From: Clostridiales bacterium GWD2_32_19
GTDB lineage: Bacteria; Bacillota; Clostridia; Lachnospirales; UBA12420
Assembly: GCA_001795385.1 (NCBI GenBank)
Contig: MGOU01000043.1
Location: forward strand, 1 to 59,934
Length of the DNA stretch: 59,934 bases
Direction of reading: 5' to 3'
The position numbers and the translations under genes were made by a program. Positions within the stretch are counted from its first letter, which is position 1. Each line of letters opens with the position of its first letter. The notes under the pieces were generated by a model that saw only the letters and a list, made by a program, of their open reading frames with translations, was not told the DNA's origin and ran no database searches. Below, one piece after another: positions 15,133 to 59,379 of this stretch.

Positions 15133-15204
15133 CTCCTCGAGTGGGGCTCGAACCTACGACCCTTCGGTTAACAGCCGAATGCTCTACCACTGAGCTATCG
15201 AGGA
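15133..15204 (-). tRNA. tRNA-Asn (GTT)
   Basis: A cloverleaf with acceptor TCCTCGA/TCGAGGA, anticodon GTT, D arm AGCTCAGTGGTAGAGC and discriminator G. The first 20 bases are repeated 127 bp upstream, at 15312-15331. Confidence 0.95.
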
Positions 15205-15334
15205 TTATAACTCTTTGTTTTCTTTTTGATAATCTAATCTCAATATTATTCATGTTTGTGGACTAAGCGATTCAGTCAAAATCTAAAATACATATTTTGC
15301 TTCTCTGCTTATACCACTGAGCTATCGAGGATTA
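15205..15334 (-). ncRNA. tRNA-Asn 5' copy plus structured element (copy 1)
   Basis: On the minus strand, 20 nt identical to the tRNA-Asn 5' end (15331-15312) run directly into TAAGCAGAGAAGC, a hairpin (AAAATA-TG-TATTTT), and then TGAATCGCTTAGTCCAC. TAAGC pairs with GCTTA, and GTGG from the copied tRNA D loop pairs with CCAC. The same architecture occurs before tRNA-Thr at 59181-59306 with compensatory changes. The unit (tRNA start to tRNA start) is 127 bp here and 126 bp there. The piece cannot fold as a tRNA because it lacks the 3' acceptor strand. It lies between the operon promoter and the intact tRNA, so it should be transcribed. Confidence 0.65.
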
Positions 15335-15402: not shown

Positions 15403-15431
15403 ATTATATCATGATTCAAAGTCATTGTCAA
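15403..15431 (-). promoter_or_regulatory. Promoter of the tRNA operon
   Basis: On the minus strand TTGACA (15431-15426) and TATAAT (15408-15403) are separated by 17 bp. Transcription runs through the tRNA-like element and then Asn-Glu-Cys-fMet. Confidence 0.88.
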
Positions 15432-33230: not shown

Positions 33231-33504
33231 TTGACAAATTTTAGGTTTTGTAGTAATATAAATTAAATACGGTGAAGAGGATTAGTAGGTATATGAAAGC
33301 TTTTAGAGAGCTGTTGGTTGGTGAAAAACAGTAGCGAGTATTATCCGAACCTACTTTGGAGTAGTTTGAAAAACAAACCGAAGAACCTGCGTTAAGGGAA
33401 ATTGAGAAAATTGAAAATGAAAATTTTTAATTTTAAATTGAGTGGTACCACGGAAACCCCGTCTCATGTCTAGACTTATAGTCTGATATGAGACGGGGTT
33501 TTTA
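33231..33504 (+). promoter_or_regulatory. T-box leader of proS with its promoter
   Basis: Promoter TTGACA (33231-33236) and TAATAT (33254-33259), 17-bp spacer. The leader has Stem I arms AGTAGGT and ACCTACT. CCG at 33345-33347, a proline codon, is the candidate specifier. The T-box core GAGTGGTACCACGG lies at 33440-33453, and the terminator ACCCCGTCTCAT / ATGAGACGGGGT with a T run at 33456-33504. Uncharged tRNA-Pro should bind, favour the antiterminator and raise proS expression. Confidence 0.88.
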
Positions 33505-58588: not shown

Positions 58589-59191
58589 ATGGACTATAAA
58601 AGAGTTACAGATGAACAAATATTAGAATGGATATACAATGAGGAAAAATACGCAATGGATGAATTGATAGATAGATATAAAGATTTTGTAAAAAAGAAAG
58701 CAAGAGTATATTTCTTAGTAGGAGCAGACTCAGATGATATAATACAAGAAGGGATGATAGGTCTATACAAGGCAATAAGAGATTATAAAACAGAAAAGCA
58801 AAGTTCGTTTAAAACATTTGCAAGTATGTGTATCGATAGACAAATGATAACAGCTGTAAAATCTGCAACGAGAAACAAACATAAATTTTTAAATAACTAC
58901 ATATCATTGAACAAATTAGAATCAGATGAAGATACTGAGGACATAAGTCTAATTGATATCCTAGTTAAAGAGGGATCAAATCCTGAAAAGTTGCTATTAG
59001 TTAAGGAAAATATAAAAAACATACAAGAAAAGATAAAAGACAATCTAAGTGAATTTGAGAAGAAGATATTAAACATGTATTTAAAAGGTGCGAAATATAT
59101 AGAAATAGCAACAGAACTAAATGTTACTGTAAAATCAGTAGATAATTGCGTGCAAAGAATAAAAACAAAACTTTCAAAGGCACTTCTGTAG
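58589..59191 (+). CDS. sigH: RNA polymerase sigma factor SigH-like, 200 aa
   Basis: Sigma-70 region 2 contains DELIDRYKDFVKKKARVYFL, DSDDIIQEGMIGLYKAIRDY and FKTFASMCIDRQMITAVKSA; region 4 contains NMYLKGAKYIEIATELNVT and VKSVDNCVQRIKTKL. These match SigH, which turns on early sporulation and transition-state genes. The length is slightly below the usual 215. ATG 58589 is preferred (GGAGAG upstream); an ATG at 58559 is possible. Located between the pilus operon and the tRNA-Thr region. Confidence 0.92.
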   Translation: MDYKRVTDEQILEWIYNEEKYAMDELIDRYKDFVKKKARVYFLVGADSDDIIQEGMIGLYKAIRDYKTEKQSSFKTFASMCIDRQMITAVKSATRNKHKFLNNYISLNKLESDEDTEDISLIDILVKEGSNPEKLLLVKENIKNIQEKIKDNLSEFEKKILNMYLKGAKYIEIATELNVTVKSVDNCVQRIKTKLSKALL

Positions 59192-59306
59192 CTCGGTAGG
59201 TATAAGCAGAGAACCGAAATCTGTGTAATTCAGATTTAGAGTGAATCGCTTAGTCCTTAGTAGAGATAAAGTAGGGGAACAATAATGAAGTAACAAGTAA
59301 ATAAGT
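59181..59306 (+). ncRNA. tRNA-Thr 5' copy plus structured element (copy 2)
   Basis: ACTTCTGTAGCTCGGTAGGT differs by only two bases from the tRNA-Thr 5' end at 59307. It continues into TAAGCAGAGAACC, a hairpin AAATCTG-TGTAATT-CAGATTT, then TGAATCGCTTAGTCC. TAAGC pairs with GCTTA, and AGG from the copied tRNA pairs with CCT. The same order and core occur before tRNA-Asn (15205-15334), where the loop-stem bases differ in a compensated way. The tRNA-to-tRNA distance is 126 bp. Confidence 0.65.
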
Positions 59307-59379
59307 GCTTCTGTAGCTCAGTAGGTAGAGCAATACCATGGTAAGGTATAGGTCAGCGGTTCGATTCCGCTCAGGAGCT
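59307..59379 (+). tRNA. tRNA-Thr (GGT)
   Basis: A cloverleaf with acceptor GCTTCTG/CAGGAGC, anticodon loop ATGGTAA (anticodon GGT), and T arm GCGGTTCGATTCCGC. Discriminator U; CCA not encoded. Confidence 0.93.

Follow-up and report, generated by a model that had tools for sequence, protein, structure and literature searches.

What is a partial copy of a tRNA gene doing upstream of the complete gene? The question arises at two loci in the window, by which we mean the whole stretch of 59,934 nt analysed here (contig MGOU01000043.1 of Clostridiales bacterium GWD2_32_19). At both loci the order from 5' to 3' is a tRNA 5' part (R1), a hairpin core (E), a linker (L) and, last, the entire tRNA; its initial 20-21 nt are termed R2. 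At the Asn locus, on the minus strand, a perfect promoter, TTGACA-17-TATAAT (15403-15431), is followed by R1 (15312-15331), which equals nt 1-20 of tRNA-Asn and runs from nt 1 to the GGTA closing the D loop, by E (15264-15311; TAAGC...GCTTA, 48 nt), by L (15205-15263; 59 nt, constrained in length and in its 5' part partly complementary to R1) and by tRNA-Asn (GTT) at 15133-15204, in which R2 (15185-15204) is the copy now used. At the Thr locus, on the plus strand, R1 (59182-59202), E (59203-59252; TAAGC...GCTTA, 50 nt) and L (59253-59306; 54 nt) precede tRNA-Thr (GGT) at 59307-59379, with R2 at 59307-59327. Both tRNA genes are supported by ARAGORN and Rfam, and both E cores by pattern, covariance model and covariation. 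An earlier note on this DNA had described a related element before the two tRNA genes, and both copies were recovered where it had placed them, with TAAGCAGAGAA and TGAATCGCTTAGTCC exact; the core in the window reads TAAGCAGAGAA...TGAATCGCTTA, in 48 and 50 nt. The copied tRNA 5' ends of 20-21 nt that it reported are present at both loci and identical to the tRNA at Asn, but the Thr copy mismatches its tRNA at 2 of 21 bases.

The conserved portion is a hairpin of ~50 nt, TAAGCAGAGAAcc...gTGAATCGCTTA, with strong covariation. Its exact bipartite pattern has 5 matches in the 1.97-Mb genome, against 0 for the reversed control, showing that the likeness of the two copies is beyond chance. Covariation among 25 diverse cores scores 0.330; shuffled sequences give 0.079 (0 of 500 shuffles) and slid structures at most 0.094. 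The hairpin is 97.3% paired in these 25 sequences, with 7 pairs changed on both sides, which bears out the earlier claim that it is kept by compensating changes. The invariant foot of E reads TAAGCAG/TCGCTTA, and the foot or outer stem also co-varies (TAAGC/GCTTA vs TAAGT/ACTTA). With a covariance model built from five copies, a search that the earlier note had proposed found 8 copies in the window genome (G000), 10 in the sister species (G001) and 0 in a third species of the genus (G002). A scan of genome contigs yielded at least 113 stretches with E; the matches listed come mostly from Bacillota (Clostridium, Sporomusa, Acetobacterium, Eubacterium and others) and Bacteroidota (mostly Flavobacteriaceae). 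Two matches to the E pattern in viral contigs both lack the hairpin and were taken as chance. At the Rfam gathering score no family (T-box, riboswitch, Flavo-1, etc.) matched the element in the window or in related loci, and identity with Flavo-1 was rejected as its matches in two loci fall elsewhere than E. A text search of the open literature for the core sequence returned only chance, primer-like matches. Elsewhere in the window, a T-box leader lies at 33263-33469 on the plus strand (Rfam RF00230, 119 bits).

In the window genus (G000 and G001), in the Acetobacterium/Eubacterium family and, among other Clostridia, in Clostridium sp. Cult1 and one Marinisporobacter genome, almost every copy of E examined belongs to an R1-E-L-R2 unit before a tRNA gene. 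That further tRNA genes carry a copied 5' end, as the earlier note had suggested checking, is evident from at least 11 tRNA types bearing units: Phe, Lys(ttt), Lys(ctt), Thr(ggt), Thr(tgt), Thr(cgt), Asn, Trp, Gly(gcc), Gly(tcc), Leu(caa), Arg(tct) and Cys(gca). Some units stand in tandem, two or three to an array, for instance at Trp with a period of 125 and likewise at Phe, Thr, Lys and Gly. L separates E from the tRNA by 53-65 nt at nearly all loci and by 28 at one Lys locus; its length has a mean of 57.8 and an SD of 2.9 and is near-constant despite diverged sequences. R1 and R2 are the same in most first units, and the flanks beyond tRNA nt 1 are only as alike as those of unrelated loci. 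The repeat measures 20, 21, 22 or 25 nt, yet always starts at tRNA nt 1, so a target-site duplication of fixed length was rejected. Features of a MITE were also looked for: no terminal inverted repeats were seen around E-L-R2, and the R1/R2 repeat of 20-25 nt tracks the tRNA instead of having a fixed length.

The order of events can be read from empty and filled sites. In the third species, which is E-free, a sigma-factor-like ORF ends in ...KTKLAKTLL* with its stop inside an intact tRNA-Thr, whereas in the window the same ORF ends in ...KTKLSKALL* with its stop (TAG, 59189-59191) inside R1, and the sister species is arranged alike. Therefore, R1 is the resident 5' end of the tRNA gene and E-L-R2 is the insert, comprising 50 + 54 + 21 nt between GGTA and GAGC of the tRNA. 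The duplicated 5' end proposed in the earlier note is thus present but has to be read differently: the upstream copy is the one the tRNA gene had originally, and the downstream copy, now in use, arrived with the insert. In the Asn locus of the third species a promoter of the same arrangement lies 25 nt before an uninterrupted tRNA-Asn, and in the window R1 lies downstream of this common promoter. The Tyr-Phe-Lys cluster of the third species has spacers of 7-10 nt. Altogether the Asn, Phe and Thr sites are occupied in the window genome and the sister species and empty in the third species, and the Lys-TTT site is occupied in the window genome and empty in the other two. It was also observed that the stranded tRNA-Thr 5' end shares its first 10 nt (59182-59191) with the sigma-factor-like ORF. 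Also at Thr, the window genome and the sister species have different bases at one D-loop position (CAGTAGG, CAGGAGG), in R1 as well as in R2, and this matching difference suggests a concerted change of both copies.

Units always lie after GGYA (GGATA at tRNA-Arg) and before GA, usually at A21|G22. The motif GGA?YAGA is present in 44 of 45 unit-bearing tRNA genes, the sole exception being an Asp gene, and in 39 of 93 genes without a unit (P = 9×10−12, Fisher test), where the motif is partly derived from the units themselves and the second group counts two window-genome loci (L175, L179) again; weight is therefore placed on the GA requirement and on comparisons within tRNA-Cys and tRNA-Gly. No unit is found at the tRNA-Cys D loop, which reads GGTA|AGGC. 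In Cult1, where tRNA-Cys has GGCA followed by GA, a unit with a 25-nt copy lies at GGCA|GAGG (A26|G27), between the D stem and the anticodon stem; tRNA-Cys genes with GGCA followed by AA or CG have none. Likewise, Gly-TCC genes with GGTAAAAC (GGTAAA; window genus) are empty, whereas those with GGTAGA (Marinisporobacter, f77) are occupied. Because the tRNA-Cys site is outside the D loop, the insertion site is set by sequence, not by D-loop structure, and strict D-loop targeting was ruled out. A small mobile element that enters the tRNA D loop and duplicates the 5' end, as first proposed, thus comes near the evidence, with the correction that the target is GGYA|GA, which usually forms the end of the D loop but lies outside it in tRNA-Cys.

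Units are also shared between loci within a genome. In A. dehalogenans, E and L are identical at 121 of 121 positions at two tRNA-Lys genes, and the flanks are unrelated (identity 0.38 upstream and 0.44 downstream). In Cult1, E and L are 96% identical at two tRNA-Cys loci in unrelated surroundings. Part of the identity between units of one genome could be due to gene conversion bounded by the tRNA gene. In Acetobacterium, Lys units and Phe units have homologous linkers (z up to 12), and therefore L belongs to the unit. As far as comparison of sequences goes, the insertion of E-L-R2, the order of events, its target and its spread are established.

It is thus probable that E-L-R2 is a tRNA-restoring, non-autonomous mobile palindromic element of ~125 bp inserted inside tRNA genes. 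The element would enter straight after GGYA where GA follows, with hairpin E as its left end and R2 as its right end, the latter replacing the tRNA from nt 1 to GGYA; after insertion a complete tRNA would lie downstream and the old 5' part, R1, would be stranded upstream. R2, the replacement end, presumably came in with the unit and was not generated upon insertion. Since the promoter at Asn lies upstream of R1, R1-E-L would be part of the primary transcript as a pre-tRNA leader, probably removed by RNase P. The insert, of ~100-140 bp, is too short for an integrase gene, and movement may depend on an enzyme encoded elsewhere in the genome. Tandem units may arise via further insertion or slippage. 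Such an element would be a very small one that inserts in tRNA genes without killing them, and a test case for how a short repeat picks its target. The tRNA leaders of carrier bacteria contain decoy tRNA 5' ends, which calls for caution.

As for the enzyme, one specific mechanism, tentative and doubtful as it stands, is that E is REP-like and mobilised in trans by a Y1/HUH single-strand transposase (RAYT or IS200/IS605-like). The hairpin with internal mismatches, the insertion into the loops of other hairpins and after a short fixed sequence, and the Y1 genes in 14 of 15 carrier or related genomes tested would all fit, and IS200/IS605 cleavage sites are known to be picked by short guide pairing (PMC8266576). 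However, E is absent within ~1.5 kb of all 30 Y1-transposase loci examined from carriers and relatives, its foot has no GTAG or CGTC tag, the third species has Y1 genes but no E, and one genome (G064) has E but no Y1 match; moreover, single-strand insertion alone leaves R2 unsupplied. A RAYT/REPtron origin was rejected, as Y1 genes are common yet unlinked to E.

Several points run counter to the mobile-element reading: no transposase was found with E beside it at the 30 Y1 loci, the identity of units within a genome could stem from gene conversion, R1 changes less than L, which plain decay of a stranded copy does not lead one to expect, and linker length is near-constant in spite of divergent sequence. 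At orthologous loci R1 identity is 0.86-1.0 vs 0.62-0.78 for L, and E is also better conserved than L; at Thr the conservation of R1 is partly explained by R1 also encoding the end of the ORF. The conservation of E and R1 and the near-constant spacing, together with the position of the units between promoter and tRNA, would suit R1-E-L as a tRNA-specific regulatory leader, in which L pairs either with R1, so that the tRNA folds, or with R2, so that its 5' part is sequestered; which of the two prevails would depend on a protein or ligand bound to E, as in an attenuator. Consistently, R1 pairs better with the linker of its own unit than with the linkers of other tRNAs (0 of 1000 permutations, RNAduplex), and an anchored test gives 1 of 2000 permutations overall, 6 of 2000 within the window genus and 37 of 2000 in f77. 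The outer stem drawing on D-loop bases described in the earlier note is marginal in that form (base beside GG, P = 0.02-0.06), whereas the broader complementarity of copy and linker holds in the anchored test. Nevertheless, when leader and tRNA were folded together, the real L had no significant effect on pairing in the native tRNA, R1 or R2 (P = 0.11-0.64), and L as a device that only sequesters R1 was rejected on this ground. Orthologous tRNAs of close relatives have no unit, E occurs in many non-tRNA settings, and the insertion site tracks sequence and not tRNA architecture, as at tRNA-Cys. A regulatory leader is unlikely to be the explanation of the units; the tRNA-mimic regulatory RNA that the earlier note had offered as an alternative may still be considered because of the complementarity between linker and copy. 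The same complementarity admits a speculative extension of the mobile-element reading, to which we give equally little weight: L, with its 5' part complementary to tRNA nt ~1-21, might be a guide and E a scaffold, forming a nucleic acid that directs insertion beside the GGYA of the matching tRNA gene, or else the unit might be a tRNA-specific attenuator domesticated from a mobile element. The guide, if true, would make a nucleic-acid-guided element ~125 bp long that also repairs its own target.

An RNA route, in which a tRNA 5' fragment was joined to E RNA, copied into DNA and recombined in, seems very improbable. It would account for an R1/R2 identity that starts exactly at the mature tRNA 5' end, and for E lying directly after tRNA CCA ends (Sporomusa) and at RNA hairpin loops; however, the Thr locus shows that R1 is the resident genomic end, and identity would start at nt 1 in any case because the two tRNA copies have unrelated flanks. 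Old tandem duplications of tRNA genes with a decayed first copy could be suggested by the tandem units, but this reading, including the single old duplication that the earlier note had named as its refutation, has practically no chance of being right, being refuted by the same E core at the same site in at least 11 tRNA types and several lineages and by the E-free relative, with no tRNA 3'-half remnant seen in the linkers inspected and the core also found far from tRNA genes.

E-L-R2, as a probable mobile element, can be compared with several known systems. Prophages and islands that integrate in tRNA genes restore usually the 3' part of the gene and carry an integrase gene. E-L-R2 likewise lies in a tRNA gene and makes good what it displaces, as the empty third species and its two filled relatives indicate, but it is ~125 bp long, codes for nothing, is without its own integrase and restores the 5' part; like tRNA-integrating phages it would repair the gene that it breaks, though at the 5' end and with no gene of its own. 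The 178-bp repeats of E. coli tyrT (rtT RNA) are tandem units after a tRNA gene, each with the 3' end of that tRNA. Both systems repeat a unit in tandem beside a tRNA gene and include part of that tRNA in every unit, but the E units have the 5' ends of many tRNAs, lie before the gene and have a common hairpin. Rickettsia palindromic elements (RPE), reviewed together with other small mobile palindromic repeats (PMC2229807), are also non-coding stem-loops of ~100-150 bp within functional genes, including RNA genes, that keep their function. RPEs, however, interrupt the gene and are tolerated, whereas E-L-R2 replaces the tRNA 5' part that it displaces, enters tRNA genes specifically at GGYA|GA and can be arrayed in tandem; here RPEs are compared by description, and the hosts differ. 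With the REP/REPIN elements and their RAYT transposases (PMC3116915, PMC8266576, PMC3733652), E shares a palindromic repeat with a conserved foot and a stem with conserved internal mismatches, a second hairpin and tandem arrays, and in Clostridium also a mainly extragenic location (84 copies in C. simiarum). E differs from them in lacking the GTAG or CGTC tag in its foot and a flanking RAYT (Y1) gene (30 Y1 loci, ~1.5 kb), and in having a tRNA-specific subfamily; Clostridia and Firmicutes are unmentioned in PMC3733652. E-L-R2 would be a new variant among small mobile palindromic elements, its core matching no Rfam family or published sequence found.

E is not confined to tRNA 5' units. The conserved core on which the earlier note remarked is real, but it belongs to a widespread palindromic element that also occurs outside tRNA genes, and E as a whole is a general insertion element of palindromic form, one branch of which is specialised for tRNA genes. 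In Bacteroidota (loci L026-L138), the TAA with which E begins doubles as the stop codon of a few conserved genes; these encode a protein of ~1150 aa ending in EVGGQYRRNM*, DnaK, an FKBP-like protein and a protein ending in DYNYYTQNM*, and E is followed by a second hairpin (TCCCG..CGGGATCT). A second hairpin also follows E in Clostridium, where copies lie between genes, inside the loop of another E or, as comparison of empty and filled sites indicates, in the apical loop of another repeat of ~90 nt. An unnamed mobility system probably acts in both Bacillota and Bacteroidota. In Sporomusa, E lies directly after tRNA CCA ends, and in two Clostridia MAGs (L118, L137) it is found on group II intron contigs, in L118 inside a match to group-II-D1D4-6. 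In C. simiarum (L217, L218, L272), many small CRISPR arrays in tandem have E within their leader-distal repeat (GATGTATT|TAAGCAGAGAACC), with a second hairpin behind each copy; in one case E occupies a first repeat. On one C. simiarum contig the ends of such arrays account for dozens of copies on the same strand, and integron-like cassettes were rejected. The structured host repeat of ~90 nt (CATCTGAGTCTTAGAAGAACTTATCCAGGCGCGTAGCAGTGC..GGATAAA) in the C. carboxidivorans group (L253-L260, L285-L314) has about 49 matches in one genome and no match in Rfam. At one locus (L308) the loop of a core E contains a variant element (TAAGCAGGCATCC..GGAGATGATCGCTTA), and a third variant element (TAAGCAGATATCC..GGTGATAGTCGCTTA) is present in C. 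simiarum.
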